Below, one piece after another: positions 3,001 through 36,000 of a stretch of 64,000 bases of DNA; the stretch's first letter is position 1; each line of letters opens with the position of its first letter. A program made the position numbers and the translations under genes. The notes below the pieces were generated by a model. It worked only from the letters and a program-made list of their open reading frames with translations, did not search any database and had not been told where the DNA came from. This DNA is from Membranipora membranacea (taxonomy: Eukaryota > Bryozoa > Gymnolaemata > Cheilostomatida > Membraniporidae): assembly GCA_914767715.1 (NCBI GenBank), contig OU612073.1, positions 6,014,001-6,078,000 on the forward strand. The letters are read 5' to 3'.

Positions 3001-6000
3001 ATATACTACCAATGAGGTGAGTGCTAGTGTTGTAACTGACTGTTACTATGTGTTGGCTCTGATTGGCTGGTGGGGAGGAGAGAGCCAATGTGTTAGCTCT
3101 GATTGGCTGGTGGGAGGAGAGAGCCAATGCGTTGGCTCTGATTGGCTGGTGGGTTGGAAATAGCCAATGCCAGGTCAGATGGTACTTTCCTGAAAGTACA
3201 GATGTATTTTATAGTGTATGTTAAAAAATTCAGTTTCACTTTCATTACATCTCAATAGGTGCTCTCTGTGACGTGGCATTGGCTCTTTCAGCCAATCATA
3301 TCAGAGCCATTTCATTGGCTTGGCGCAGACTCATGAATTTTTGTATGATCAAGTAACTATTAAAACATCGGGAAATAGATGTTAGCCGGGTAATGGGTGG
3401 ATCGTTTGATTTTTCATATCTCTTTCTCTTTTTGACAATCTGTTTTAGGGACAACTGAAGTATAAAGATATGATCAACAAAATAATTAGGAAATATCCTG
3501 CTTTTATTACTGGATTTTTTACATAGCCAAATATTAGATGACTTTGTTTGCGTTGGTCTACTTTCAAACCATTTCTAATCATATGAATTGATCTTTTTTA
3601 AGCAAATGGCAGAGTATTCTTATCACTTGAAGCAGAATCACTATGTATCGGATCTGCTGTTGGTCTTATTTAATATCATACCATTAGAGGAAGCGCTGCC
3701 TATCGATGAGTCCAAGTTACTCCAACTCGTCTCAAGAGGTAGAATATATATACCTCCAGCTTAAAAACAAATTGTTAAGGCTTCTGATGTATGGTTCAAG
3801 CAAGGAGCTCGGGCACTATCTCCCAGCTGACACTTTGGTTCAAGTAAATATTTGCCAGTGCTATGTTCTGCTCTTTCGTAACAGTATTCTACTGAATTCA
3901 AACCGTCAGAAACTGAGAATTAGCTTACTATCACAAATCGGCCTCTGAAATAAACATGTTTGTTGGATGTTTCATATAAGACTTGCCAGTCTGAAAACTT
4001 GTAGACAATTAGCATGCCACCATAATCTTCTGGTATTTCTGCAGCGAATGGGTTCAAAATTATCTCTTTCATCTCTAAAACATCCATTCCGTGATACTTT
4101 AATGAATAAAACTGCTCTGTGCCTCCCACATGTAGCTTACATCTTATTTTGTCAACAGACAGATCCCCAAAAAAAGTGGCTCCGTTAAGGTGTTTTGTGA
4201 TATTAAAAGGAACAAAGCTTATTATATCATCTCATTATTAGATGTATGTGATGGAGATGAGATGATTCACCTTGCCTGTTGGGTTTACTACAACCTTGTG
4301 AAGGTACTGCCAGCTCTGGTCCGCAGCTGGCACGGTGAACTGGAGAAAAGAGCAAACTCCCTTGTCGATAAGTAAGTATGATACTTTCTCAGGGACTTAT
4401 CCCATCTACCCCAGAGTTGTCTGTATTTATCCTGTGTCCTCCAAGTGGCTGCCGATTATCAGTTGCTGTTGAAGTTGCAAAGACTATCAATTGCTCAGAT
4501 GCAACTTTTTAAACAAAGGCTCTAAATGAATAGGGTCTCCATTGATACCCCATCAAGTGCGTGCAAACAAGTGTTGCTGCAACCGTTTTATCTTTATTGG
4601 CTTGATGATGTACATTTTTTGTACATCAAATCTAACCACCAGGAATAGCAGAATCATAATATATATATTTCTATCTTCGAACTTTAAATGTTTGGGAATT
4701 AAGGAATAAGAATCCGACCACAAATGTTCCTGCAAGAAATCTGTAAATATTTATCTAGATGGTTATTGGTAATGATACTGGTGATCGCTGACCTCATTCA
4801 ACTAGATTACACTTGATAATTACAATATTTATCACAAATTATAAATAATAATATTATTTTTGCAATTTTAAACAAACTCTGCTTAAAGCTGATGGATTGC
4901 CCCCCTATCCCACATAACTTGAAAATAACATCAACTCAGCTGACAATGACTGTTATTCTATCTTACCAACTTTTAACTCAAATTCAAATTTCATTCCAGG
5001 TTTACCAGCAGATATGTCAGTCCTCGCCTGTCTATCGATGAGATGGAACTGATTCAGACGGACACTTCTCTGATATCTGCAGAAAATCTCACTGTCAGAG
5101 TGCGACCTGCAGCACGGGAAATAGTTGCTACATACACTCTAGAAGAGTTCTCCATCGAGCTTCTGATAGTATTACCAACCAATTACCCTGTTGGTCTTAC
5201 CAATGTGGAATGCAGTAAGAAACTAGGTGTTGCCACAAGTGAATGGAGAAAATGGATGCTACAGCTTACCACTTTCCTCACATATCAAGTAAGTTATTCA
5301 TGTTCAACTGTCTCTTTTATTAATTGGTTGGTTGGTCGGTCGATCGATCGATTGATCGATCTATTAAACGATCGACTGATTGATAGAATCTAGATGATTT
5401 GACTCAGTTGTTGTTTCTGCTTACTGGTTATCAAAATCAGTCTACCAGTGTGTGGAGTGTGGGCTGTGCTTACCAGCTATTTTATCAGCATATTATATCT
5501 AAGCTGTTTTGAGCTTTTTGAAAAAGAAAGATTTAGAACACGATGGATGTCTCACAAAAGTTTTGGCGACTACTCATTTAATTCATCATCGTAATTGGGT
5601 TAAATTTGCAAGTTTTGTCTCTGTCCGAAGACTGAGAAATATCAGTGCCGGTCGGAGCACAACAGGGGGGTCAATTGAGCCCGGTAGACCGCAGCGGGAT
5701 TCGAACCCGAGACCTCCAATGCTTGCGCAGTTGAGGGCAGGCGCTCTAATCAACTGAGCTACCTCCTACTCCTAAATTCACTTCACTTATTTCAGAACGG
5801 TTCAGTAGCTAAAGCAATAGCTCTGTGGAAGAGAAATCTGGATAAGAAGTTTGAAGGTGTAGAGGAATGTTATATTTGCTTCTCTGTCTTACACGGAACT
5901 AATCTACAGCTACCTAAACAACAGTGTAGAACATGCAAAAAGAAGTTCCATTCTAATTGTCTGGTGAGTAAATTTGTTTGTCGAATCCCTCAACGCACAC

Positions 6001-6350
6001 TCGCCATTCATAGCGTCATTACTCAGTGTAACACAATCTGATTATTTACTCTATAAAGTTAGCTGCATATGATGAATAAATCGGACTGTTTCCATACGGT
6101 CAGAACTCAGAATATTGTGTGAAATGATCATTGTTGAAAGGATTGGTGAAAAGCCAGCCGCCCAGTCCATGTATAATTTTGGTTCTTTGAGCAGTTTATT
6201 ATCATGAAGCTTCATAAGGTAACTCAACATTATTACCATCCTTGTTCTTCAATTTCATTTTTTTTATATTTATGGATCATTTTTTTGTAGTACAAATGGT
6301 TCACCTCAAGTCAGAAGTCGACTTGCCCGCTGTGTAGGAATCTATTCTAG
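1..6350 (+). CDS. LTN1: Listerin E3 ubiquitin ligase, C-terminal third (5' end outside window)
   Basis: Exons read as 1-128, 707-869, 1422-1626, 2106-2337, 2764-3016, 3603-3738, 4242-4371, 5000-5288, 5796-5963 and 6291-6350 (TAG stop). All have GT/AG borders and the 1764 nt stay in frame, giving 587 residues. The early exons are the helical HEAT-like stalk. The exon at 5000 carries the listerin RWD region (YPVGLTNVECSKKLGVATSE, then WRKWMLQLTTFLTYQNGS). The last two exons form the RING: CYIC, CRTCKKKFHSNC, then STCPLC before the C end. Listerin binds stalled 60S subunits and ubiquitinates the trapped nascent chain in ribosome-associated quality control, in the cytosol. Family proteins are about 1700-1800 residues, so roughly two thirds lie upstream of the window. 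The RING and its linker match the family closely, so identification is secure; individual stalk exon borders are less so. Confidence 0.95.
471..645 (+). repeat. Degenerate tRNA-derived SINE in LTN1 intron
   Basis: A diverged copy of the SINE seen better at 18561. It keeps the tRNA-like TAGCTCAATTG box A region and the body segment GCTCCGACCTGCCTGCAAAG. It lies in the first complete LTN1 intron in sense orientation. The box B region is mutated (GAGTTAGAATC), so it is probably transcriptionally dead. Confidence 0.6.
1313..1440 (+). repeat. Tandem duplication covering an LTN1 splice acceptor
   Basis: Two adjacent copies of about 65 bp share AAGATGTTGTGTAA at their left ends (1317 and 1384) and AGATTTTACCG at their right ends. 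The first right end sits behind CCCAG (acceptor at 1358), the second behind CTTAG (acceptor at 1421). If the upstream acceptor were used, the frame would stay open for 20 codons and hit TAG exactly at the downstream acceptor. The downstream site is therefore the productive one. Confidence 0.7.
3053..3170. repeat. 40-bp palindromic minisatellite, about 3 units
   Basis: Three near-identical units of 39-40 bp begin with TTGGCTCTGATTGGCTGGTG and end in AGAGCCAAT. Each unit can pair with itself, because GGCTCT and AGAGCC are complementary. A looser relative follows at 3270-3320 and another lies at 39511-39660 in the kinesin gene. The units contain ATTGG/CCAAT boxes. The array is in an LTN1 intron just after the exon ending at 3016. 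Confidence 0.8.
5321..5390. repeat. Low-complexity TTGG/GATC stretch
   Basis: A short run of TTGGTTGG passing into GATCGATCGATTGATCGATC and diverged variants, inside the LTN1 intron after the RWD exon. No coding signal is seen in it. Confidence 0.7.
5636..5772 (-). repeat. tRNA-derived SINE, head part
   Basis: On the minus strand this reads GTAGCTCAGTTGATTAGAG (box A) and GGTTCGAATCC (box B), an almost perfect tRNA head with the RNA polymerase III internal promoter. It continues into a short non-tRNA body with GTTGTGCTCCGACC. The same family occurs at 471, 18561 and 38462 and in the duplicated block at 25881-27437. It is not a tRNA gene, because the body continues past the acceptor-stem position and relatives are dispersed. 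Confidence 0.85.
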
Positions 6351-14984: not shown

Positions 14985-17900
14985 ATGGATTTACCATTAG
15001 AGAACTCGGCGCATGGAAGAGCGTTTGAGATAGGTCTAAGACTTGCTCACATGCCATATCCAAGCCCAGCAAAAAGGAACCATCAGGAAGAGCGTTGGAA
15101 CTGGCCGTGGATGATTGGTTGGGGCTATTATTCCAAAGAGAAGATTCTTGCCGAGACAGCAGGGAAAAAGGTAACGCATCTTAAAATCACTAGTCCAATG
15201 TGTATGGAGCTGATCAAAAAGTGGGCACCTGATGTGACCCATCTGAGACTAAGCAACCCCTCTGACGCTGATCTGGAGCAGGTGATCAAAATGTGAGTTG
15301 ACCATAATACATCAAGTTTGATCCAATTGGCAAGCATTTGAGTTGAACCCCCCCCCCCCCCACCTTCTCTATTGACACCGAGCGATTTGTATTTACCTAT
15401 TTTAATATTGAAGCGGATCGCATTTAGTATGTATACACTTGTCATAAAATCTCTCTGGGACTGTTTATTTTTGGCTAAGGCCTCATCCGAACTGTAATAA
15501 AGTGCATGCTGAGACTGCAACATTCCCTTTGCTCTATATGTGCTTATAATTCTGAAAGATAATGAGGAACCACTACCGGTAACAGCAATATGAGCGAGAC
15601 CTGCTAGGGCCTCGTTCCAAAATCGCTTGTCCATTGACGGAGTGAATGAATTGGGAACAAATTTGTCCGATCAAAAGTCCTAATGAGCTATATTTTTGAG
15701 ATAAGTTCCGCAGCAAAGAATTTTTATTTTCTACATGTCTGCGGTGAAATTTATAGATTCTCCAAGGTAAAGAGTCTAAAGGCACTGGATCTCGGAGGCA
15801 ATCATTTCTCCAAAGGGTTACCGGGGAGTGTTTGCAGGATCAAGTCTCTCACAGACTTAAACTTAGTGAGCTGTGGGCTTCGGGATCTTCCTGCCAGGTA
15901 GGTGCTCTGCTTATTGATGATTGTTCACTTTGTAACTACTCTGTTATCTGTTAACCTTCTAGACAACCTCTTTAAACAAATAAGCTGCAATATTACACAA
16001 GAAGACCCGCTAACATTCCAGCTCTACATCTTACATCGACTTTCTTAGTGTAAAAATGCCACCCTCAGCCGTTTCTCACCCTCCCAATCAACACAACTGT
16101 GGATGAAGTGAGATTTGAATAAACTGCTATTGGTCCCCTTATGTCTGACCGTTTGAATGATTGTTGTAAATATTGAATCTTCCTTTTCACCTCTTTTCAG
16201 CCTACCTAAACATCTGCCTAACCTTGAGGCACTGAACTTGGCAAAAAAAAGATTTCGCTGCATTCCATCATGCATCAAAAAGCTAAAGAAGCTCAAGATA
16301 CTCAAAATGGATCGTTGTTTGGCTGATAGCAGGTCAGCCCATCACTATAAGCCCATAAAGAATCCTCAGACAGTGTCCTCAGTAGTGATGTAGCACTGCT
16401 TGATAGTTGGGATGACACTATTTATGTAGATTGAATGCCGAAGGTTTATAAGTTAACTATTTTTATGGTTCAGTTCAGTGTGATCATTAATTCATTCTTT
16501 CAAAGTTGTTGAGAAAAGATTGAACAGGTTAAAATTTTCTTATACCTGTAACAATGGTCAACTGGTTCAATTAATATACTCACTTTTTTTTTACAGTGAT
16601 AGTGGGTTTACTGTGCTGTCAGGTCATAAACATTTAGCATGCTTGGATTTCGGTGGAAATGACTATTCTGCAGGGCTGCCATCATCTTTGCTGGGATTGT
16701 CACAGATTAAGGAATTAAGACTCCGGAATTGCAATCTGAAGAATAATCCTGCGCAAAGGAAATGCTATGACAAGTAAGAGTAAAAGTTTCCATATGCAGT
16801 TTTGTTATATAAAGTCGAGCAGGCCGGAATTCTGTCTTTGAATGGATAACATCCTATATGTGTCTAAATCTATATCAATACTTAAAGGACAACCAAGGTT
16901 TCGCAGCAATGTATTAATGGGTAGCAAATAATGTGCTGGGCAGCATCAGCTTTGTGCATTACACGATGCAAAACTCAAAGTAGTTGCTTACTCTAAGCTG
17001 GGTAACACTTCAGTTTAGGGGAGGTTCCAAGACTCTGCTGTAATAATTATAGAGCACAGGCTAAATAATAACAGGAACAGGAAACTGCTATGTGGTATTC
17101 TCTTTTAGCTGAGTTTGAGTACCTGATGGAAGAAATGTTTCACAAGAATTCTGGCTGAATAATCATCCGAATTTTATTTTGTCTTTTTCCCCATGCAGAA
17201 GGTGCAATCTGCTATTAATCAATGGCCATCAATGAGAAGTTGTTTGAAACCTTGGTTGCCCTTTAATCTGCTTGATGTTCTGGGAGTGTAAAGTCATAGT
17301 GCCCTGACGTTCAACGACCTCCAGTCCTTTAGCAAAATAGCCATTTTAAGTCAAACCCAACAAAGACGCAGTTCATAAGGGGTCAAGAATAGGTCAGCGT
17401 TAGATGCTTGGGCTTGAGCCCCACCAGTCTCACTGTTTGTCTAGTACTAACTGTCTTGGCAGGCCATTTGCCCAGGTCGACATGGATTATGGGTTCGCCA
17501 TATTGCCAAGATCCTCTAACTATTGAGTTGCGATCTTCCCAATCAATGCCAGTTTGCCATACTCATCCATACAGATTAGTGACTGTGGGAGGTGGATACA
17601 TATAAACCACCTTAGCTGAAGTGTGGAGCTCCCTTCTATCGTACCTTGGTGATTATAGTTCCAGATTATAGTTTAACCAACACCTGAAAACCCGCCTGTT
17701 CCTTGAGGCTTTGGTGGGATTGTGAATATTAAGAAGGCCAAAAGTGATTTTAGCTTCTCAATCTATTTTCTATTATTTTATGATAACTTTTAATAATACT
17801 TATACTTATACCTTCAACAAACTTGCATTACCTGTCGGACCTCCATTTCTTTGTTTGCGATAACATCGTAACGGTATATCATATAACGTAACGCTATATT

Positions 17901-20900
17901 CATAGATAATACCTTCTCAATACCTTCAGTCACTCACAAAACACTTCAAAATACCTACACACTATATTTTCACAGTATCACTATCTTTGATATTTGCAGA
18001 AGCGTCTTAGTTTTGGCTAAGAAGGCTCCAAATGATCATATTTTTGTCAATTGTTTTACAAGATTCGAGCAGCTAACAAATGTTGAATCCATCAGTTTGA
18101 GTTGGAATGATTTCTCTACCTATGGTATACCAGAACAAGTTTTTCGCCTACAGACACTAAGATCCCTGAAACTTGGTCACTGCAATCTCCAACAACTCCC
18201 AGCGAGGTAATCCTCTTAATAGCGCAGACAAAAAAAAATTATCTGAACAGGATAATTGTAACTGAATGCACTACTATTTAAGAAATTTCTTTGATATTGT
18301 GTTTGTAAGCTTTTCTATGAAAATATTTGTCATAATCCCACCGACATAGGCCTATCGATGGTGATAACAATAATTTTGTTTTCTTTAAGTTTGTCGAGCA
18401 TGAAGCAGCTGAAGGAACTGAAGCTCGATGGCAACCCTCTGAGGAGGCTTCCGATAGTGATATGCGGCCTTCAGATGTTGGAGCACCTCAATATTTCCGA
18501 CTGTCTTCTGGATGAACTGCCACAAAGGTGTGAATCATGATTATCCCCAAAGTTACATTAGGAGTAGGAGGTAGCTCAGCTGGTTAGAGTGCCGGTCCTT
18601 CATCGCGCAAGTGTTGAAGGTCGTGGGTTCGAATCTCACTGCAGTCCATTGACAACTGGGGTTTGGTCGGACCCCAGGTGTGCTCCAACCTGCCTGCAAA
18701 CTGAGAGCAAGCTGGCGCAGACATTGCGGCCTAGCCCTTGTGGCAACTAAATTTCGCCACCCATGCTCCGAGATGGCGAGTGATATGACATTCGATTTTA
18801 CTCAACCATTTTTGATATTGTACTAAAAACTGAGTTGCAGTATTGGAGTTATGTGTGGTGTATGGATGGATGGATGGATTTTATTACTATCACTGACAGC
18901 ATTATTAAAAGAAAAAATGAGTCGTGAAATACAGTGTAATTGCTGGCACTTTGAATCAGCAAGAAAAAAGCGAAGACACTTGGAATAAAAAATCAAATCT
19001 CTGTCTAAAAAAGTATTTCGTTTAAAATAAGAGTGATATGACGCAGAAAACAGTCTCTCCCCAGTGAGCTTCAATGTTTTACTGTACGGTATCTGCCAGA
19101 TGGACATTTACTCAACAAATCATTGATGAAATGATCCTCATCGTGAATATAGCGTAAGGCCAGTGTTCTTGTCTGATTGTCCATCATGGTATAAATATCG
19201 GGATGTTCAATGCCTAACTTAATAGCGTCCTTGAAAATTTTACACAGGCGTTGCTTGTCAGCAGCATACAAGCTTTTAAAAATAATGGGTATGACATGGG
19301 TTTACATGCCATTCCATTTTATATCAACCCTAGGTCGAACAAAATCGATCCCATCCATTCAAAAATATTCAGGACTGTGATATGCAATACATGTACATGT
19401 ACTATGTACGGCATTCCTTCTGTCTGCATCCTTTGCAAATATGTGTGGATTTGAGCAATAGTTTATAATTCCTTATGCAAGCTATCATTGTATTTTGCTT
19501 ACAGTTTCTCTTTGCTGGAAAATCTGAGAGATCTTGATATAGGAGGAAGCAAGAACCGATTCAAATCATTACCTAATGTAATCCTACAGCTAAACAAACT
19601 GGAGTGTTTGAATCTCGCAAGCTTAGGCTTGATGAAATCACTGGACCGGAGGATACTCAACCTCAGCAACCTGACAACGCTAATTTGTTGGAATTGTTTT
19701 GCACTGGAAAGTCCGCCTAGCCAGGTATGTGCCCAGGGCCTCTTTGCAATCAAGAAATACTACAACGATCTTGCCCAACACGATAAACCCTCGGCTGCTG
19801 CAATTCCGGTCACCTCAATAGCAGTCATTGGAAGCACTATGGCTGGCAAGACAAGTCTGATTGAAACCCTAAAAAACAAAAGAAGGATCCTGACAAACCG
19901 TGATGAGAATTCACCAACCGATGAAACCACTGAAGTGTTTGACGTGAAAGACATTACAATCGGTGACTCAAAGTTGAGGTGTTTTGACTTTGGTGGTAAC
20001 GATGTGTATCACCTGGCGCATCAGTTCACCATCCGAAACAACTACATCCCTGTCATCGTTGTAAACATGAAGCAATACTCTGACTTGTCTATGTCTGCAG
20101 GGTCAAACCAAGCTACAAAGATGGTTTGTCTCAATTTCATGTCCCATCTATATATCTCCTGTCCCAAACTTGGCGCACCTATTCTAGTGCTGACGCATAT
20201 GGACTGCCTGTCGAAAGCAGAGTTCACTGAGGGAAAGGAACAGCTGCTATCTACTATGGAATCTCTACGCAAGACCATGGTGGAAGAAGAAGCAAGATTC
20301 TCCAAGAACACCAGCAGATTCTGTAAGATAGAACATTTCTCAAACACTGATATACCTCTCTTCAAGAGTGAAGACATATATATATTCAGTAATGCTCCTG
20401 CTGAAACAGAAAACATTCTTTCTCTCACGATGAAGCTCAAGGGTCGAAGTAAAATTCATGAAAAGGTCATCCCTGACATATGGAACAACATAGAGTCTTT
20501 CTTCGAGCTAAACCACCAGTTACCATTCATACTTCTGCAAGCCGTTTTGGACGCATTCCCAGATGATAAGGACTCCGTGATACTACGATATAAACATGAT
20601 GTCGGTAGGGTTCTATGGTTTGAGCTAGATATCCAGCTTCGTCAGTTTGTTTTCCACAGGATGGATTTGTTGACCAGTGTAATATCGCTGTTATTTCATC
20701 ACAGGAATGCGGAGAATTGGAGAAAGAGAGTAGATGGATTTAAACCATTCCATTTCAAAGACAAATGGGTGACTAAGGAGAAATTCGGTGAACTAGTCAA
20801 CAAGTTTCTGAGGTCTGGAGTGTTGGATGAAGTGATTCTCTATACTGCGTTCAGCGAAAGAGAGTTCCCCGCTCAAACTGCCATAGCTCTTCTTAGGACT

Positions 20901-23900
20901 TTTCACTTGGTTTGTGGCCCTGTAAGGGCTACACCAAGGGAGGCATATATAATCCCTGCACTCTCAGAAGATACCATTGAAGAAACCAACATCAGTGATA
21001 GTCTCCTTCCTCTCCGTGTTGCCATTATTTTTATTGGCCTCCCACCGCCTCCCTATGTTTACCATCTATTGACAGTTGCATTCTTGAATCTCTTTCCGAG
21101 TCATGAGTTTGGGATCAGAGCAGCTAGTAATGGTGCAGTGGTACATCATGGTGCCTCAATCAGTCGTGTCACCCACAATAGTGCAATCTCTGAACTCACA
21201 GTTCAAGTGGACACCCCAGTAGAGGAGTTGGATGCCTCTTGGAGGTTGATGAAAAAGGTCATTCATCACATATTGAGATGCTCTCTGAGAAAATGGGAGG
21301 GGGCTCGCCCTATCTGCAAGTTCTTCTGTTCCCATTGTTTGCTCTTGAGGCTCCCGAATCCTGATGTTGATCTAGACCCAGACTGGATGGAAATTCCTAA
21401 TGTGAATGACTCAGCAGAGAATGAATCTGAGTGGATTAGTGAATTCAGAGGTGCAGAACCGGTCCCATGCTGCAATGACAGAACAAATGGAGGCCCTCTT
21501 ACAGTTCTTAAGCCACTACGCTACCCATGTGAGTACTGTTACCTCTTAAGAGGCTTCTAGAATGTTCATCAAATATCTTTCACGAGCGAACAATGTACAT
21601 GACTAGAACGAGAATAGAATGAAAAAAGTGGCTAGTGAAAATGCTCTATCTTGGTCAACTATGCTTTGCTTCCAAAATGGTTGCCTCTGGTCTAAAAGTA
21701 TTTACCAAACTCAAAATCATGTTTGCTTGGTCCATGTATATTAATTGTTCTAGACGAGGCCATCTTCATTTCATTCAATTAACCTTGGTGTTGTCACAGG
21801 TGACTCTCTGACCGCAGAAGAGCTGCAGAAGGTGGAAGTCTATGTAACAAAGCTTTCTGAGGATAGGACCGGTTCAAATGAAGCAGAAGTAGCCGTGGCC
21901 ACTGCAAATACTCTACCTGGTAACTGCAGAGTTTATTTTCGGATAAGTTATATCTGGGTGATGTTTTCAGCTCGACTTCTGGTTGATGGAGATCGGTATC
22001 AAGTTTGGTCACATTATTTTTTACAAAGAAGCCAAGATCATCCTGCCTTGTCACCCTAGTAAATCAGAGCACAAGACATATAATGAATGAATAAATAATA
22101 TTTATATTTGCTAAAATCTTATCTTAGTCTCCAGCAATCCAGCTTCCATTACCCAAACTGGAGCGGAAGTACCTTCAGCAGAGACAGCCAAGACAGAGAT
22201 GGACTATGTAGAAGAGATAGTGGCTATGATGAAGATTTGCCACGCTGATATCAGTCTGCCTTCCAGTCAAGAGAGCCTGGTTACTACACCGAGAAATGCC
22301 CCGGATAAGGTACATTAACTCCTCACGTGATTTTATTTTTACTCTTTGCATCAGCACTCTGATGAAAAACTTGTAGAAAACATTCCCTTCTTTTTTAGTT
22401 GCTTACCATACAGGCCCCAATGCTTCTAATTATTCAAACCTCAGCAAGGTCACTGAAAGTGGCATTATATCATCAACCAGGGGCGTTGTTGATAATGGAA
22501 GTTTACAACAAGCAGCTTGGGCAGGGCACTAGTACTACATTCTCTGAATAGATTATTTAGTTTTATTCATTTACAGTTTAATGGATAATTTTCATATTCG
22601 ATAATTGACAATTGAATTTTCTATCTGTTTGCGCTCAGTTTACTCACCATTCTCCCTGCTTTACTTCATACAAGATAAATCAACTCAAGAAATTAATTTT
22701 CTGTTGGCTCACTCTCTTTTAATTGTATAGGAATACGAGATGACAGAGCCACTGGGTAGAGCTTTGATAATATCAAACAAGTACCTCGTGACTGACCACC
22801 GAACAGGAAGTGACCACTGGAGACATGGATCTGAACATGATTATACAAACATGAGACAAATGCTCAACAGATTGAATTTCATCACAGTTGGAGAGCACAA
22901 GAACTACACTGCTAAGGTATGGAGCATGCAATCACTTGGACTTCCACAGGCCCGTAGTCTTAGGGTGGACAGGGGGCATTAGCTCCCTGAGAATGCTTAA
23001 TATTGTTCCCTAGAAACACTATGATTTCATAATACGTGTCAGAATTTGCCCAATTGGGAATTCTATTTATATATTTACCTAGCCAGTTAATTGAACCAAC
23101 GGTCTCAGAAGACAAAATTTGAATAACAATTGTATTTATCTCTCAATGGCTACATATGTGTGCGAGTTTCTCCTGGTAAGCCGAAACCAAAAGCACAACA
23201 AAATTATTAGCTAACAGGCGACAACATTTTTCAGGAAATGGTTGGTGATTAAATTGATTGAATGATTAGTGATTGAGAGCTTGCATATTCCTCTTTTTTG
23301 AACCGACACCAAATGCACAAAAACAATCATGACTAGCTAACACAGGTGATAACACATTTTAGAATATGGTTGATGCTATTCATGAAGAAACACAGCTAAT
23401 AGATGAGTACACAGGCAGATCGATACACGAGGGCTTTGGAATGTTTGTCTTAATCCTTACAAGCCATGGAAACGATGGAAGCATATTAGGATGTGATTAC
23501 ATGCATATAAAACTGACTGATATTTATGACCTTCTCTCTGCTCGTAATTTCCCGGCGATGAAAGGCAAACCAAAGCTCATAATTATTCAGGCATGCTCTG
23601 GAGGTAAGCAATGCAGGAAAGTTCTTCCAGATAGCACAGTGATGCCCTAAATTTTGAATTACAGCAATCAAAGTGGTGTTAAAATAGTTGAAAGACAATA
23701 TTATAGAATATCGGTTGACTGCCTACACAAACTTTCTTCTTTTCCTAATAATTTACTTCTTACTCTTTTAATGTGCAGAAAAAGTTGAGATGATGCTTGA
23801 CGGTGTTCCAGAACAACCAATACCAAGAAGTGGCAGCTCCACCAGTGGAAGCAATGCAGAAATAGGCCTACAGTCAGCTGAAGAGATAGCACTAACAGCT

Positions 23901-26900
23901 GTTCAATCGCATAATCAGCAGACACAACAGCCGGAAGAATTTGACCTTGACCCACAGAATACAAACATTTCAGTGGCAGATCTTTTGATAATGCAGTCCA
24001 GTTTTGATAGTGAGTGTTTAGTCCGTAATGTTACTGTCAGAATTTACTTATCAGTGACCTTAGCCTGACCACCATCATCACCATTACCACCATCACAACC
24101 ACCATCATCACCACCATCACCACCACTACCATCACCGCGACCGTCATCACCATCACAACCATCACTACCATCACCACCACAATCACCACCACCACCACCA
24201 CAATCACCACCATCACCACTACCACCACCACCACTACCACCATTATCACCATCACCACGACCATCACCACCACCACCACCACTATCACCACCATAACCAC
24301 CACCATCACCATTATCACCATCACCACGACCATCACCACCATAACCACTACCATCACCACTACCATCACCACCACCACACTCACCACCATCAACACCATC
24401 ACCACAACCACCACCACCACCACTACAATCATCACCACCACCATCATCACCACCACAATCATCACTACCACACTCACCACCACACTCACCACCATCATTA
24501 AAATGACAATTACCATGCCCATTACTGCTACAATTACTGTTACAACTACTGCTACAATTACCCTTACCATTGCCCACAAAGGTAGGCAATTGTAATGAGA
24601 AGTGTCGCTTTGTTCTAGGTTTTGCATCTCCAAGAAGTCCAGTTCTAGGTTCACCGTTTATAAGAGCTGTGGTACTCACATTTCATAAAATGGCTAGCCA
24701 GTATGATGTGGGCTCTATGAGTGATGTGGTAAGTAAAAGTAATGCCTAATCTTACAGATAGTATATTATTATGGACAGTAAAATGAGAGCAATGTTTTCT
24801 CTGTTGAAAAATGTATTACTAGATAGTCTTGATAGTCTTGAGCAGTCATCTTGGCAGATGTGCTTCAAGCATACACATCTCTTATAAACTGTGATAAAAA
24901 GTAGCAGTGTGATAAGATACTCAGTTATTTAAAGTCAAAAATGCTCAGTTGCAGTTATCTCCTCCTTACTTTTCTAAAAGCTATCTCTTTCCTACAGCTT
25001 TTAATTCAGAATAACCACAGTTGGTCACCTGGATCGTTAGTCAATCAGCTAACTATTCATTTATCTTTTTCTGCAAAAAACTCCAAATCTGACAAAAAAT
25101 CTCCAAGTTCGTGTTTTTCTGTTTGGGCAGAACTACACTTCGACATGGTAACTCACAGAGATCTGGTTTTTTTTGGAGCATCAGTTCATCACATTATCTA
25201 AATGAGCTTTTGAGGGCATGTTTGAAATATTTATTTCATCCATCAGTGCAGTGGCAATGTTGCTCAAGGCAGTGCAAAGAGCCTATATATTTGTAGTTTC
25301 TATGCCATTGTGTACAGTTTCAAACAAATTCTAATTGCCTTTTATCAAAGGAGTGGAGCAATTTACAAATGACAATGGAGATGCTATACTGAACTTAAAC
25401 AAAAGAATCTTTCTGTTGGTTGATATAAGTTTTCAGTATAGATCGTGGTGACCCATCAGTCACCCATCAAATTCTATCAGAATGACTATGGACCTCAAAA
25501 TAATTAATATTATTAATATTCCGAAACATGGTTTGGATTTGGCTTTTTTCGTGGATAATGTTCAATGATAGCATTTTCAAACTACACCCAAATGTTTGAG
25601 TTTAAATTTTACTCGAATGTCATCCCAATATTTTTATTATTGAAACACACTAATGTAACTATGCTGGATGCGTATAGGATTATGATAACTGTGTGTCTGT
25701 AGGGCTCACCCTTAATAACACACATGATATTCTATGTGAAATATTCTGCTGCATTTTCAGTGAGCTGGTTTCTGTATGTTTGACCTTGGTGTTTCTATCA
25801 CCATTAAGGAATTGCAGTCCTGAAATAACCATTGACAGCATTCATGTTACGGTTGAATTTGTACATTTGTTTAAAAATCGTGCCCTGGGACTGCATCTAT
25901 ACTGCAACAAGTTATAATGTTGTTATTTTTGAGGATTCGGTTAGCCAAACAGGTGGGCTGCCTCAATAAACAACAAATCTGAGATGGCCTCCAAACAAAA
26001 TTGGATGCAATTCTTCACGCAGTGCATTGAAACTATCCAAGTACAATTGAGACCTCTGCTGGATGAAGATATCGGTTAGAGCAATTACAGACATTGTTTT
26101 CTCAGAGTAAATTTTCTAATCCCTCAAGAAAATCTTATTTGTAAACAACCAGTGTATTGCAGTCCCTGTGTTTCATTACAGGGAAAGAATTTGTTACTGT
26201 TGTGCCTTGTTTATCTTTTCCAAAGGATTTAAAGGCAATGTAATTTTAGAATATCTAAACCTGAGGATTACCTTTGTGTCTCAAGACTTGTTGCTTCCTA
26301 TGATATTTATGTGTTATAGCATTATTACATCAGATTAAAATTGAAGGTTGAATTAAATCAGATGTCTTGTCGCAAGCAACATCCTGGAGCATAGGCGGCA
26401 AAATTTGTTGCCTTAGTGGCCAGGCCGCAATATCTGCGCCAGGTTGCTCTCTGTTTGCAGGCAGGTCGGAGCACACCTGGGTTCCAATAGCCCAGTGCTA
26501 GATAATTTGTAATCCTGCTCAGTCCAAATATATTTTCCAACCAGCATTCCAAGCCCGAAACCCCAGTTCTGATACAAAAAATTTAGCCCATATTGAGTGC
26601 CCCGTTTTTTTATACCAATTTTATTGCATCTAAAATATCATATCATATTATGTTGAATCAATAGGCTTTAGTGGCTGGCTACTCATATATTTACATTTTT
26701 GCAATCGACCATGACACCTTGTCGACATTCAATTATCCACACTCTCTTTACTCAACAAAAACATGGTCCATGCTTCTAAAAAGTTATACAGTGTTGCGAT
26801 CACTTCACTCTTGGTTAGCCGGGTAAACCTTCTTCCGGGAGTTATTGCACAATCAAGTAGAGGGTGCCCTGGGACTGCATCTATACTGCAACAAGTTATA

Positions 26901-29071
26901 ATGTTGTTACTTTTGAGGATTCGGTTAGCCAAACAGGTGGGCTGCCTCAATAAACAAAAAATCTGAGATGGCCTCCAAACAAAATCTGAAGCAATTCTCC
27001 ATGCGGTGCATTGAAACGATCCAAGTACAATTGAGACCTAAGCTGGATGAAGATATCAGTTAGAGCAATTACAGACATTGTTTTCTCACAGTAAATTTTC
27101 TAATCCCTCAAGAAAATCTTATTTGTAAACAACCAGTTGTATTGCAGTCTCTGTGTTTCATTACAGGGAAAGAATGTGTTACTGTTGTGCCTTGTTTATC
27201 TTTTCCAAATGATTTAAAGGCAATGTAATAGAATATCAAAACCTGAGGATAACCTTTGTGTCTCAAGACTGATTAAAATTGAAGGTTGATTTAAATCAGA
27301 TGTCTTGTCACAAGCCACATCCCGGAGCATAGGCGGCGAAATTCGTTGCCTTAGTGGCTAGGCCACAATATCTGCGCCAGGTTGCTCTCTGTTTGCAGGC
27401 AGGTCGGAGCACACCTGGGTGCTAACCAAAGCCCAGTAGATGATGGACCGCAGACACATTTGATATGAGGCCCTTTCGATAAATTTAAGGTTCAATGATT
27501 GCACAGACCAAGGGTACATTGTGGCAGCATCATTCAAGGATTGTGATAGTTAATCTTATTGTAAAAACTGCCACAATACTGCCTTCATAGCTATACCCAC
27601 CGTATCAATTTAGCTAGGATAGTTAGGTGTAATTTAAGCATAAAACTTCATGTCTAATTATGTAGTAAGGCTGTACAAAGAGAAATTTTTACGGGAGAGC
27701 CTGCATATTCTATTTTTTACTGTAATCAAAAACTTTGAATTCAGTTCATTCTCCGGAACCCTATAATTGTGACAAATAGATGAAAGGAGTTTTTGGCATC
27801 AAGCTTCCCATAACTTTCCCCTTGACGCAAAGCTCGCAGGTACCTTGACCAAGGAGTAAAAAACTCTTTCCTTGACTATTGTTAAATAATTTACTCTGAA
27901 TCCCTTTACTCTGTGAAGCAGTCTATCCACATGCTTGAAACTAAAATGTTTTACACAGATAGATAGATGGGGTGATAACTCTATACTGCAAATGAGCCAC
28001 CAAATTTCAGCAATAAGAGAAGACAACTTCTTAGCCCAAGATTTGCCCAAACTGACATTAATGAACTGAGTACTTGATGCTGTCATCTGTTTGATTTGAT
28101 GAAAGTGTCTTTTTATTATTTTGATAAGCCGTATTTGCCAATGTGTGGTCCTTTGAAAATGTTTCAAAAGTAAACTCTGTAAGCATCGATTTCGTTAACC
28201 ATCTAGGAACAGAGACAATTGGAAGACAGCTATTACGAAACATCGTTATTAGAATTCTGATTTAGCCATGTTCTGGATGTGCTTTCTTCATTAGGTCAGG
28301 GAAGCTGTTAGCCTTTACAGTGCAGAGCGATCCAATGAAATCATGCAGTCCTGCCCTCCCTCAGAGCGCCACAGAGCCTTTATAGCACAAATGCCTAAGA
28401 GTATATGTACTTTCACTGGTCTTCGAAAGCTGTACCTCCGTTCAAGTGATCTAAGTGATCAAACTCAGAGTCAAGCGCAGGATGAAACAGAAAGTGATGA
28501 AATCACAAGAATTCAATGGCTGCCAGGTAAAATCTCGATTAACTTTGTAACACCACTATGCTGTTTGTTAGTTGCTTTCTCTCAACAAACTAGTACTCCC
28601 CCTCTCATGGAATCCAAAACTTGTATGTCAACAAGTGGCCAACTAGTCAGTTAAAGCAGATAATGCATTCCTGCATTAATTTTCCGATAACAATGTTCAT
28701 CCAAGCTGGTCCCTTCGTTGAGTACAGTTGGCTTTATGTTGCTTTTCTGGTACATGGATGACATTACTTCCCCTTCATATATGACTTCCACCTGTTTGTA
28801 ATGGTTCATTAAACTTTGTACCGATGGCCCTCTAAAAATAAGGAGAATGTCATACTAGACTCTAGGAGATATCTTCCTGTCAACAAGGTCAGACAGCTCT
28901 ACAGCACATAATGCTCCCTTCACTGAAAAATGTTTTGATAAATTATGTTTTCTTCTGATCTCAGATATGGAGACAGAATGGAGGACAGAGGGAGTGAGGT
29001 CTGGAGCTCGTTTTCTCCGGTGGAAAGTAGAGAGAATACCTGCTGGCAACTCCTCAGCCGGTCCAGCCTAG
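14985..29071 (+). CDS. LRR-Roc-COR-caspase fusion protein
   Basis: Fifteen exons: 14985-15292, 15757-15897, 16201-16332, 16597-16773, 18063-18206, 18390-18527, 19505-21528, 21800-21919, 22128-22309, 22731-22916, 23363-23603, 23779-24009, 24619-24728, 28295-28526 and 28965-29071. They total 4473 nt (1490 residues) and keep frame at every junction. An in-frame TAG directly precedes the ATG. Order: unknown N-terminal region (1-102), about ten LRRs (103-440), Roc GTPase (about 450-660), COR (about 690-960), linker, caspase p20 (1123-1264; His1219, Cys1262), acidic linker (1265-1341), p10 (1342-1425), short tail. ROCO proteins use the Roc-COR unit as a GTP-dependent dimerisation switch; caspases are activated by induced proximity. 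It is therefore plausible (inference) that LRR ligand sensing drives caspase activation. The main uncertainty is whether one transcript really spans the Roc-COR to caspase junction. Confidence 0.85.
15757..18527 (+). CDS. Five phase-2 LRR exons of the ROCO-caspase gene
   Basis: Exons 15757-15897, 16201-16332, 16597-16773, 18063-18206 and 18390-18527 are 141, 132, 177, 144 and 138 nt, all multiples of three and all bounded by phase-2 introns. Each encodes about two leucine-rich repeats of 23 residues (for example SLKALDLGGNHFSKGLPGSV, then SLTDLNLVSCGLRDLPAR). Most end in a LPAR or LPQR-type motif right at the donor. The exon at 16597 is longer and ends in a less typical NPAQRKCYDK. Symmetric exons of one repeat period can be duplicated or skipped without breaking frame. 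Confidence 0.85.
16882..17266. mobile_element. MITE, full-length copy
   Basis: The ends are inverted copies of each other: TTAAAGGACAACCAAGGTTT at the left and AAACCTTGGTTGCCCTTTAA at the right. The element is 385 bp, without coding capacity, inside the intron after the third LRR exon. A truncated relative at 54899-55236 in the cortactin gene shares the internal GTGCATTACACGATGCAAAA region. Confidence 0.85.
18561..18790 (+). repeat. tRNA-derived SINE, longest copy
   Basis: It starts GGAGTAGGAGGTAGCTCAGC with box A (TAGCTCAGCTGGTTAGAG, from 18573) and box B (GGTTCGAATCT, 18626). The body carries GTGTGCTCCAACCTGCCTGC, GCGGCCTAGCCCTTGTGGCA and a final ATGCTCCGAGATGGCGAG. It is the most complete copy here, in the intron before the Roc-COR exon. 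The intact internal promoter suggests relatively recent activity. Confidence 0.9.
19505..21528 (+). CDS. Roc-COR exon (last LRRs, GTPase, COR)
   Basis: A single 2024-nt exon, unusual in this gene of short exons. It begins with the last LRRs (LENLRDLDIGGS, then LNKLECLNLASLG). It then gives the Roc P-loop GSTMAGKTS (residues about 456-464), the switch II-like DFGG (508) and THMD (577), which replaces NKxD as is usual in Roc domains. The COR part follows, with LPFILLQAVLDAFPDD and the later LPLRVAIIFIGLPPPPYVYH segment typical of COR C-terminal halves. There is no kinase domain, so this is not an LRRK-type protein. The architecture up to here resembles MFHAS1/MASL1 or the Roc-COR part of DAPK1. 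Confidence 0.9.
22731..28526 (+). CDS. Caspase domain exons of the ROCO-caspase gene
   Basis: p20 exons are 22731-22916 and 23363-23603, the linker exon is 23779-24009, and p10 exons are 24619-24728 and 28295-28526. p20 begins GRALIISNKYLVTDHRTGSD, with the RTGSD arginine that lines the S1 pocket in caspases. It contains the catalytic SHG and ends KPKLIIIQACSGG, so His and Cys are present but the usual QACRG is QACSG. p10 has SPRSPVLGSPFIRA, matching the WR...GSWFI region whose arginine also binds P1 Asp. It ends FTGLRKLYL like the usual KELYF end. The roughly 77-residue linker is rich in Ser, Gln and acidic residues with possible Asp cleavage points (EEFDLDP, SVAD). The P1-Asp pocket points to a true caspase and not a paracaspase or metacaspase. 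Confidence 0.9.
24066..24500. repeat. CAC/CAT trinucleotide microsatellite, about 435 bp
   Basis: An imperfect array of CAC, CAT, TAC and CAA triplets. It lies in the intron between the caspase linker exon and the first p10 exon, starting about 55 bp after the donor at 24010. The long open frames seen in it on the minus strand are artefacts of the triplet repeat. Confidence 0.95.
25881..26496. repeat. Direct repeat copy 1 (616 bp) in p10 intron
   Basis: It runs from TGCCCTGGGACTGCATCTAT to the CCCAGT at 26496 and is repeated in the same orientation at 26865-27437. Its right end (about 26368-26496) is the body of the tRNA SINE in minus orientation, without the tRNA head. So the repeat is a composite of unknown sequence plus a 5'-truncated SINE. 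No coding capacity. Confidence 0.9.
26865..27437. repeat. Direct repeat copy 2 (573 bp) in p10 intron
   Basis: The second copy of the 25881-26496 block. It is about 90-95 percent identical by eye but lacks a stretch of roughly 40 bp present in copy 1 at about 26290-26335. The two copies are separated by about 370 bp of unrelated DNA. The 3.5-kb intron holding them splits the p10 subunit. Confidence 0.9.
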
Positions 29072-33000: not shown

Positions 33001-36000
33001 TGATATCAGCCTTATCTTGCTCAATCTCAAGCTTCTTTCTCTCCATCTCATCGCTGACCATGATGGCGTTTTCAGCTTCTATCTTCTGTCTCTCCTCAGC
33101 CTACAAATGAAAGCAAATAATCAAATATAAGTTTTCATGACCAGTAAGTGTTCAGGTGATCATGAAAGAATCGATTGATTGGTATTCTATCACTAACTGT
33201 AAAAGTTGCGAGAAAAAGGTTGCTGGTACACATACTCTGCTTAAAAATAATGAAGTTGCCTTGCATGCAAAAATAGTATTATTAAATAGTAGATAAAAGA
33301 TTGTATTATTAATATAAATGCACATGTGTCTCAAAAAGCAGTCTTTGCCCGAGGCAGTGCAGTATTAAGGGCGTCTAAGCCGACCTGAGGGGCATCGTTC
33401 GAGGTAGTTCTGGATGAAGTGTTCGTCATCAGTGAATATCTGCATTACACAATTTTTTAAATGAGTGTTAACTCGAGTGTCGAGATCATAATTAAGTTGT
33501 AATCCGAGAGGGGTAGCATCTTTAAATATTTTGCGCATGTCCTTCTTATCTCACTGATAAACGGCAGGATAGAGGACTGGTAGACAATACATTATAAGTG
33601 AATCAGTAAAACTTTTAAAAAGCATGCATGCTAGTGGCTTGGTGCTCAAATACAGAAAATTTTTAATTATTTCTTTGACTTGCCTTACGAACAACATTTT
33701 GGATGTGGGCTTCAAATCTAAGCTTCTGGTCAACCTCAACACCAAGATATTTAGTAGTTTCACAGAAAGAAATAATGATCTATTAAGTAAGAGGCTAGGG
33801 CTGACAGGTCTTTCACGGTTAGTTGAAAATAACATTTCTTTAGTTTTGCCTGCGCTTAAAAGGAGGTCCAGATCTGAACATTGATTAGCTATTCTATTTA
33901 CTTCAGAAAAATAACAATCTAAATCAGAGGAATTACCTATGAGTCCAATCAAACAAGTATCATCAGCATATTTTAAAACATGAAAGTTCTGACATCTAGA
34001 TCTAATTCCATCAGTATACAATGAAAACAATAGAGGACTTAGTACAGATCCTTGTGGGGTGCCAGTGTTGGTAATGAGTGTATCTGAGAGTAAGTTATTA
34101 TTAATGGATATTGTTTGTTGTCTGCGATTACTGAGAAAGCTAATAATCCATTGTGTAGTAGGGGTAGTGTCATATGTAGGTAATCCGCTGAGTTTTTTAA
34201 TATCGTTCCACGTTCTCATTCTGCGCATGCTCAGCTCTGGGCATGAGCTGATCTCTGCAAAATTGAGTCTCGGAATTCCGAAGCCATCTGATTGGCTACC
34301 TGCTCTGGTGACATACTCCCCCCAAAGCGTGCGGATTTGCAATCAATAGTTATCCTCTCTTGTCGTTATTAGCTGATTTTGATTGACAGTTTATGCAGGG
34401 GATATCCCATTTCCCCTTTCCAAAGTTGCAATCAGAACCCAAACTAAACTCATTGTTCTTGCACATGCGCAAATTCAAGTCACGCATGATGCATACTTAG
34501 CCTTACGACACCTGCTTTGTGGTAATGATACCCTAGTTTATCAGTGATCTACATGCCCAGTCAGATCACGAGAGTCAGTATGCCACGTTCTGGCAGGTTC
34601 GTTCACGAGGTGCTGCTGTATCTTGGCAGAGTATTCTTGTTTGGATTTTTTGATTGCTGTGCTAACATTTATTTTCAGTTTATGTGTTTAGTTTTTTATT
34701 TCCAATTTGATGAGCATAGTGTTTCTGATCTACTAAGCGTTCGATGTTTTTGGTGATCCAGGGTTTTTGGTTGGGCTGTTTCTTTACTGTTGTAGGTGGG
34801 ATGCAGAGGTCTGTGCAGAATGTGATATAATCTGATATGACGTTGGTTTGAGTGTCTATGTTGTCGTCTTGATGGCATTGGCTATTTCCATTTTTTACAC
34901 GGACAAAGCACTTGTCCAAAGTTCTCTTGTTACTGTGTGGGTTTTTAACGATCTGGTAGTAGTTGTTGAGCTTGATGGACAGTTGATTAAAATCACCCAT
35001 GATCATTATACATGCTTCAGGGTAATTTGTCTCCATGTCCTTGACGTGAGCTAGGATCGTGTTTATTGTAGAAATTTTAGAATTCTTTAAGTATGATTGT
35101 CCAGTGAAGGGAGCATAGCATGATATTGCTATTTCTGAGGAAAATTCGCGTGGTAGCCAGTGAGGTCGAGATTTCATTGTCAATGTCAGGTTTATGTTAT
35201 AATTCAAGAGTTCGGAGTATAATTTAGAAGACTGCCCTAGGATCATAAACAGCTAGTTGCTAGTTACTGATTGTCTCTCAGTTTCTCTCATCTTTCCCTT
35301 CATACAACCTATGTCTCTTTTGACTGGATGTTCATCAAAATTGTATGGTATTAGCAATCTGAATTTGAAGACACTCTTTAATTTGCCTTATCTTAGATAA
35401 AGAATGTTGAGGTAATGGAAACCTTGAGAAACTTGAAATGACAACCCGTGACTGATATCTGGGATAACTCCCACTCTATGATCGAGATTTTGCTGAAAAA
35501 AACTCCCATCAGCATAGTCGCTGTTAACGCCTTTGTGTGATTAGACACTATTAATAGGCACTAATTTCAGATTTCAGAACAAGATGGCAGTCAACAGCGA
35601 AAAATATAGATGTATCTGACCATTTAGTTTAAAAGTTCAAGCGTTTTAACCGATAAAACTTTATAAAGAAATTCACAAACCTCAATCATCCATGACATGG
35701 TGAGGCTGCCTTTAGTAGCGAGGGCGGTGGAGCTCGCCTCTTCTCTCTCAGATCTCAGTCTCTCTGTGACGTCCTGCAGACTCAGTTTCAGAGATTTCTG
35801 TGTGTCTGATAACTCCTTCAGTCTCTCCTTCAGTCTGTGTATCGCATCAACTCTGGCCTTCCTGTCAGCATCTGAAACTTTGTCTACAATAATGCAATAG
35901 CAATAATACAATAACCATAATACAATAACAATGATACAGTAGCAATAATGAAATAGCAGTAATGCACGTACAATAATGCAATATCAGTAATGTAATAACA

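Follow-up and report, generated by a model that had tools for sequence, protein, structure and literature searches.

An LRR-Roc-COR-caspase gene of the bryozoan Membranipora membranacea and the clustered family to which it belongs

Results

Exon structure of the gene

The window analysed here is a stretch of 64,000 nucleotides on chromosome 9 of the bryozoan Membranipora membranacea (C9:6,014,001-6,078,000), and its forward strand carries at positions 14985-29071 a gene of 15 exons, with introns throughout, which encodes leucine-rich repeats (LRRs), a Roc-COR GTPase module and a caspase in that order. A preliminary description of this DNA had joined fifteen exons in frame into 1,490 codons, and the spliced model agrees with it: the exons give 1,490 codons and a terminal stop, all donors are GT, all acceptors AG, and all phases match, also at the exons starting at 21800, 22128 and 22731 that had been proposed to bridge the GTPase and the caspase. 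The motifs GSTMAGKTS, DFGG, THMD, SHG (23462-23470) and QACSG (23588-23602) were likewise recovered as described there.

Exon 1 (14985-15292) supplies the start codon and an N-terminal region of about 100 amino acids without a Pfam domain. Exons 2-6 (15757-15897, 16201-16332, 16597-16773, 18063-18206 and 18390-18527, together spanning 15757-18527) encode LRRs that are conserved in a paralog described below, the best of the matching Pfam LRR families being LRR_14 (E-value 1.9e-19). The introns here are all in phase 2 and each exon has a length that is a multiple of three, so that repeats could be skipped or shuffled with the frame kept. A loose motif scan for additional LRR exons gave 204 matches as compared to a mean of 164 (143-181) in 20 base-pair shuffles, and none beyond the known exons was clear by eye. 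Exon 7 (19505-21528; 2,024 nt) contains the last LRRs, the Roc GTPase (E-value 1.3e-6) and COR. Within it, the Roc P-loop GSTMAGKTS (residues 456-464; 19830-19856), the G3 motif DFGG (19986-19997) and THMD at the G4 position (20193-20204) were read from the translation and from an alignment of 27 Roc-COR members (A5), in which the G, K and S of the P-loop are invariant.

The Roc-COR exon is followed by two bridge exons. Exon 8 (21800-21919; 120 nt) is a phase 1-1 cassette with the pattern LTxxE...Y...L, and similar sequence is present in the bryozoan Watersipora subatra, in the paralog and at two further loci of the genome (L030 and, by eye, L034). Exon 9 (22128-22309), with the pattern EIVxMM.....I.L, is entered in phase 1 and left in phase 0. 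A 35-nt exon at 22414-22448 was rejected because it breaks the frame. The caspase p20 subunit starts in exon 10 (22731-22916), which holds Arg1153 (22821-22823), and continues in exon 11 (23363-23603) with His1219 (23465-23467) and Cys1262 (23594-23596). Exon 12 (23779-24009) encodes the inter-subunit linker with a candidate self-cleavage site, MMLD1272/G (Asp codon 23799-23801). The p10 subunit lies in exon 13 (24619-24728), which includes Arg1347 (24633-24635), and ends in exon 14 (28295-28526; SICTFTGLRKLYL), while exon 15 (28965-29071) encodes a C-terminal tail and the stop; the latter two exons are 83% and 84% identical in the paralog, respectively, and tails similar to that of exon 15 were seen by eye in the related sequences P0039 and P0043.

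Domains and predicted folds

In the joined protein, Peptidase_C14 (PF00656) matched residues 1131-1389 with an E-value of 8.5e-28. Roc (PF08477) scored 27.5 bits for the whole chain (E-value 3.9e-6) and 29 bits for exon 7 alone, the cut-off being 27. COR gave no Pfam match in the window protein at E-values up to 10; among the 27 members of A5, COR-A was matched in 16 and COR-B in three at E-values up to 0.01. The COR domain directly after Roc is accordingly assigned by predicted fold and not by Pfam. An AlphaFold2 model of exon 7 built with 26 relatives reached a mean predicted local distance difference test score (pLDDT) of 84.7 and a predicted template modelling score of 0.84, and Foldseek matched it to LRRK1 (8e05, E-value 4e-19), Chlorobium tepidum Roco (CtRoco; 6hlu, 3e-18), LRRK2 structures and COR alone (3dpt, 2.4e-8). 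When compared by sequence with solved structures, exon 7 found CtRoco (3.5e-8) and, weakly, LRRK2 (0.02 and above), and the bridge-caspase part found CED-3 and caspases-9, -2, -3 and -1 among the best 60 of 157 sequences at E-values up to 0.001. The caspase fold was modelled on a W. subatra homolog, P0034, instead of the window protein; it has a confident caspase core, a mean pLDDT of 59 overall, and the best 50 of its 983 Foldseek matches at E-values up to 10 are all caspases. As this model is poor outside the core, we conclude nothing from it about the COR and bridge of P0034.

At the end of exon 7 (residues 955-1022), where COR ends, lies a conserved C-x-H-C...C cluster with the look of a metal-binding site. 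Its positions (C608, H610, C611 and C655 in the first row of A5) are kept in at least 90% of the 27 rows.

A paralog under purifying selection

A paralog on the opposite strand, at a distance of about 0.2 Mb (C9:5,797,500-5,812,200 and the Roc-COR exon that goes with it), aligns with exons 2-15 in their order. Amino-acid identity per exon is 46-93% (for exon 2 over 26 of its 46 residues), with 46% and 70% for bridge exons 8 and 9, and a short DNA match was found in just two of the 14 introns. Since the paralog matches exons 2-15 while the introns are mostly unmatched, the exon chain is not a product of chance. Exon 1 was not found within 6 kb upstream of the paralog, and it is therefore the least certain exon of the model.

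The ratio of non-synonymous to synonymous substitution rates (dN/dS) between the window gene and the paralog is 0.27 over all exons, 0.35 for the LRRs, 0.21 for Roc-COR, 0.15 for p20 and 0.18 for p10. It is 0.47 for the bridge exons taken together (93 codons), 0.55 for the linker and 0.84 for the tail (32 codons). The gene is under purifying selection.

Family size and pairing of Roc-COR with caspase

The genome searched comprises 339,339,785 bases in 18 contigs. With Roc-COR exons as queries, one search listed 67 rows, having scored 66 of 252 candidates, and a second listed 73 (73 of 305 scored); 64 and 72 of these rows, respectively, are free of stops. After removal of overlaps and of one fragment of another copy, at least 121 distinct Roc-COR exons remained, and all family counts given here are lower bounds. 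The corresponding search for the caspase family, which scored 140 of 515 candidates, listed 145 rows. For at least 80 of the 121 Roc-COR exons, a caspase row of this list lies 0.69-3.13 kb downstream in the same orientation; no row of the list pairs with any of the 121 from the opposite strand or from the 5 kb upstream. For the exons of the first search, 42 of 66 are paired, compared with about 0.07 expected if caspases were placed at random and clustering is ignored. Seen from the other side, 82 of the 145 caspase rows sit behind a listed Roc-COR exon.

Caspase-like exons were also found downstream on the same strand at all 19 loci inspected (the window gene, 10 of 10 and 8 of 8) among the 41 Roc-COR exons without a listed caspase, although at L030 and L047 the first caspase exon alone lay within the stretch examined. 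This brings the Roc-COR exons with a caspase behind them to at least 99 of the 121. Seven of the 19 (L036, L038, L039, L042, L043, L044 and L045) have a more divergent caspase type, which was picked up by a custom profile at 1e-8 to 3e-6. Pfam was applied to two of these: the second exon of L045 matched PF00656 at 1.7e-10 and its first exon gave no match, and L043 matched at 0.025. The divergent caspases show SHG or THG, and QAC and SVRG where these are visible.

With regard to genomic arrangement, 97 of the 121 Roc-COR exons have a neighbour within 200 kb. The window gene is thus a member of a large clustered bryozoan family and not a lone oddity. A genome search for NACHT gave one match (27 of 27 candidates scored); because its controls were prokaryotic genomes, how well it performs on a genome rich in introns is not established.

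Three Roc-COR matches lie in single open frames of 1,634, 1,745 and 2,462 amino acids (C1:30534666-30536555, C11:2957951-2959729 and C11:3048928-3050706), in which LRR and Roc-COR perhaps share one exon. Furthermore, the top PF00656 match among those listed genome-wide, L001:1282-2331 (C4:18270899-18271708), lacks the catalytic Cys (FVFFDSSTG) and, judged from its sequence, is probably a pseudo-caspase.

Relatives in other bryozoans

The bridge-caspase part, when searched against a database with the hits restricted to long proteins, gave three matches: the W. subatra proteins P0001 (1,384 amino acids) and P0002 (1,835 amino acids), and a protein of Globodera rostochiensis that has a caspase domain and whose Pfam list shows neither LRR nor Roc. 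A profile running from Roc-COR to the end gave 28 matches, namely W. subatra P0004 (1,386 amino acids), which is a third full-length member, 26 Roc-COR frames of 555-740 amino acids, and P0031. The full LRR-Roc-COR-caspase order is hence found in three predicted W. subatra proteins. The caspase profile gave 18 matches: eight from W. subatra, CASP2 of Bugula neritina (604 amino acids), one from a fish, one from a bug and seven others. B. neritina CASP2 and W. subatra P0034 both start inside COR and continue through the bridge into the caspase. A further W. subatra entry, P0040 (414 amino acids), is annotated as an LRR stub joined directly to the bridge and caspase, with no Roc-COR.

Identities of the window protein to P0001 and P0002, respectively, are 27 and 30% for the LRRs, 33 and 37% for Roc-COR, 23 and 26% for the bridge, 47 and 45% for p20, and 45 and 42% for p10. 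A tree of 30 Roc-COR regions places the window gene with P0005 (64% identical) and then with others in a group of seven rows; P0004 is in that group, and two W. subatra proteins pair with each other. NCBI names two of the three full-length W. subatra members after MFHAS1.

The joint between Roc-COR and caspase

In 16 of 17 loci (12 found by pattern and four by eye, with L029 as the remainder) the Roc-COR exon closes with a phase-1 donor at the matching position. Among the 12 loci that could be anchored, six (the window gene, L004, L022, L030, L032 and L033) have a candidate bridge exon with EIVxMM or alike, and the pattern found none in the other six. All six candidates can be read with phase 1 at their start and phase 0 at their end. 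It should be underlined that the candidates were picked by motif, and their phase is therefore the sole independent evidence at this point.

As to transcripts, P0039 is a 369-amino-acid frame on a 1,325-nt JGI contig that matches four caspase exons of locus L049 (C11:1,369,758) with 92-97% identity. Because these matches are spread over about 1.86 kb of the genome, the contig can only derive from spliced RNA, transcribed from L049 or from a very close copy.

Integrity of the caspase

Alignment identifies His1219 and Cys1262 as the catalytic residues, and Arg1153, Gln1260 and Arg1347 occupy what we take to be the caspase S1 pocket for Asp. The active site was tallied by pattern at 24 Roc-linked loci including the window gene; the seven loci of divergent type stand outside this tally. 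His and Cys are kept in all 22 loci with the exon in view, the p20 Arg in 23 of 24, and the p10 Arg in all 21 with the exon in view. In caspases the subunits are separated by a cut at an Asp in the region after QACxG, as in caspase-3. An Asp shortly after QACxG is found in 16 of the 18 loci with an EM-type linker motif, the exceptions being L006 and L048; this count leaves out L003, L027, L028 and L029, which have no motif. The linker of the window gene was read from the spliced translation, the linker-pattern matches for this gene, L027 and L029 being false.

Other features of the window

Intron 6 contains a tRNA-derived stretch resembling a short interspersed element (18568-18760, by eye), and no tRNA gene was called there. 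In intron 12 there is a long (CAC/CAT)n simple repeat (24060-24500, by eye), and intron 13 holds two copies of a sequence (25880-26496 and 26864-27437) that are 87% identical over 621 columns. Outside the gene, reading frames noted by eye include a RING-finger frame with the look of LTN1/Listerin at about 5688-6038 on the forward strand, reverse-transcriptase-like frames of a long interspersed element type at 33554-34342 and 34683-35252 on the reverse strand, and Cortactin-like frames at 55743-58642 on the forward strand.

Discussion

The preliminary description had proposed a single gene in which sensor, switch and executioner share one chain. What it said of the architecture is strongly supported by homologs from two further bryozoan genera, by the paralog, by the phase of the bridge and by the same-strand pairing; GTP control, protease activity and an immune role are predictions. 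The architecture itself, the in-frame chain, the intact P-loop and caspase residues and the clustered copies are observations, and a sensor, a switch and a protease in one chain would be their natural reading. By analogy with Roco and caspase biology, the LRR arm may sense a ligand or a cellular change, and the Roc-COR module may act as a dimerisation switch under the control of GTP. Dimerisation would join two C-terminal caspase domains and activate them by proximity; these would cleave themselves between p20 and p10, the candidate site being the one in exon 12, and the cutting of substrates could then set off cell death or inflammation, either as a defence or when colonies distinguish self from non-self. 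We hold it reasonably probable that bryozoans possess a large family of single-chain receptor-proteases of this kind, with LRR sensing, GTP-switched dimerisation, caspase output and a role in defence or in self/non-self discrimination. By the same analogy, such receptor-caspases are probably immune or serve allorecognition.

Several observations weigh against this reading. The transcript-like contig P0041 covers the bridge exon and the caspase and matches L004 in pieces, and its 5' end runs unbroken upstream of the bridge exon into what is apparently intron, which would fit a separate or partial transcript equally well; no RNA was seen across exons 7-9, and P0041 does not decide that joint. 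In 27 of the 28 matches to the Roc-COR-to-end profile the Pfam list has no caspase, these being the 26 short single frames and P0031 (1,409 amino acids, LRR-Roc). The Roc of P0001, P0002 and P0004 and the COR-B of CASP2 and P0034 fall below the Pfam cut-offs, and for this reason the Roc and COR calls in W. subatra and B. neritina lean on alignments. CARD, DED and Death gave no Pfam match in the window protein at E-values up to 10, so that partners would have to be recruited without an obvious module. Lys replaces the p20 Arg in L030 and the p10 Arg in two W. subatra caspases, P0002 and P0033. GTP has been proposed to loosen the CtRoco dimer and not to make it, and the switch could have either sign. 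Finally, what points to an immune role is analogy, together with the expansion of the family.

Of the other explanations, the one that survives best is that a single gene gives two products, the fused protein along with either a free caspase, made from an internal promoter or by skipping, or a Roco protein devoid of the caspase. The phase 1-1 cassette in exon 8, the 5' end of P0041 and the annotation of P0040, taken at face value, are consistent with this. However, no transcript seen here shows it directly, and P0040 may be a mis-prediction; we regard such a dual output as unlikely, though not to be neglected. Somewhat less probable still is a role in development or tissue turnover (polypide regression, metamorphosis) in place of defence. 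Bryozoans do recycle their zooids by programmed degeneration, but about a hundred copies, and LRR arms that differ in length in W. subatra, would better fit the recognition of many targets.

It is very improbable that the caspase, although fused, is a non-catalytic scaffold or regulator. The Lys in place of the p10 Arg in P0002 and P0033 would fit such a role, as would the loss of the Cys from the caspase-like sequence of L001 elsewhere in the genome. Against it stand the conservation of His, Cys and both pocket Arg residues across the Roc-linked loci, the dN/dS of 0.15-0.18 for the catalytic exons and the inter-subunit Asp in nearly all loci with the linker motif. Least probable of all is a split at the stop at 21558 into an LRR-Roc-COR gene and, behind it, an independent caspase gene. 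In its favour, exon 7 is followed by a readable stop (its frame ends at 21560), intron 8 has an AATAAA at 22090 (by eye; an estimated 0.5 or so would be expected by chance in such a stretch), P0041 starts upstream of the bridge exon and not in Roc-COR, and the annotation of W. subatra contains several short caspases. Against it, whole chains are predicted in W. subatra, B. neritina has a chain that runs from COR to caspase, the short W. subatra caspases P0032 and P0036 still bear bridge sequence, a splice donor precedes the stop of the Roc-COR exon in all but one of the 17 loci, the bridge exons of the paralog keep both phase and sequence, and all 82 listed pairings share strand and order.

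To our knowledge, death complexes of the animals studied so far keep their nucleotide switch and their caspase in separate proteins, which death-fold adaptors join. Here roughly a hundred genes of a single animal, whose genome gave one match for NACHT, encode a GTPase switch and a caspase in the same chain. By analogy, this suggests an inflammasome counterpart that is home-grown and made in one piece. A bolder proposal, to which we give somewhat less than even credence, is that bryozoans replaced the split sensor-adaptor-caspase scheme by at least a hundred one-piece LRR-GTPase-caspases as their main intracellular system of immunity or colony recognition, and that an animal caspase became joined to a Roco protein, re-inventing a bacterial layout. 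If the single-chain reading holds, the family would give a compact system for direct tests of GTP control over a caspase, and candidates for the molecules of bryozoan immunity and colony recognition.

Among known animal systems, the NLR-inflammasome and the apoptosome likewise combine a repeat sensor, a nucleotide switch and caspase output, and on paper the window protein resembles them. It differs in having Roc-COR in the place of NACHT or NB-ARC, the protease in the same chain, and no match to CARD, DED or PYD. We do not file it as an initiator caspase, since it has no match to a CARD or DED prodomain, nor as an NLR, since it has no NACHT match, though it may work like one. The LRR-Roc-COR order is shared with MFHAS1, LRRK1, LRRK2 and DAPK1, and the Roc-COR of the window protein is predicted to fold like that of LRRK1 and LRRK2; a closer kinship with MFHAS1 would be suggested by the database names of the W. 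subatra relatives. MFHAS1 has no C-terminal enzyme, and LRRK1, LRRK2 and DAPK1 carry kinases where the window gene has a caspase.

Outside animals, the LRR-ROCO candidate immune receptors of brown algae form an expanded family with LRR exons in phase 2, each of 72 nt (PMC11378527). The family studied here is likewise expanded, and the LRR exons of the window gene are also in phase 2 but measure 132-177 nt. The preliminary description was not aware of an animal protein with the order found here. Among the papers listed by searches of open-licence PMC text, no title or abstract opening dealt with an animal LRR-Roc-COR-caspase protein, the first 30 of 70 in one search being about LRRK2 and Roc domains, and the accessible portions of PMC7159879, PMC7836458 and PMC12902671 contain nothing on this layout. 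Novelty must nonetheless be claimed more narrowly, because the bacterial LRR-Roc-COR-caspase layout has been in print since 2021 (PMC8195603) and animal entries exist in databases under other names. Bacterial LRR-AP-GTPase(Roc)-COR proteins carry at least 24 kinds of C-terminal effector domain, including caspase, occur repeatedly within a genome (one bacterium has 11 paralogs) and are read as counter-invader systems (PMC8195603). Judged from this description of their layout, the bacterial conflict proteins have the same LRR-Roc-COR-effector order as the window gene. The latter, in contrast, is an animal gene with introns, and its caspase finds CED-3 and caspase-9 among solved structures and keeps both Arg residues of the S1 pocket. 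Its layout parallels that of predicted bacterial defence proteins, and the gene is a new animal variant of an arrangement described in bacteria.

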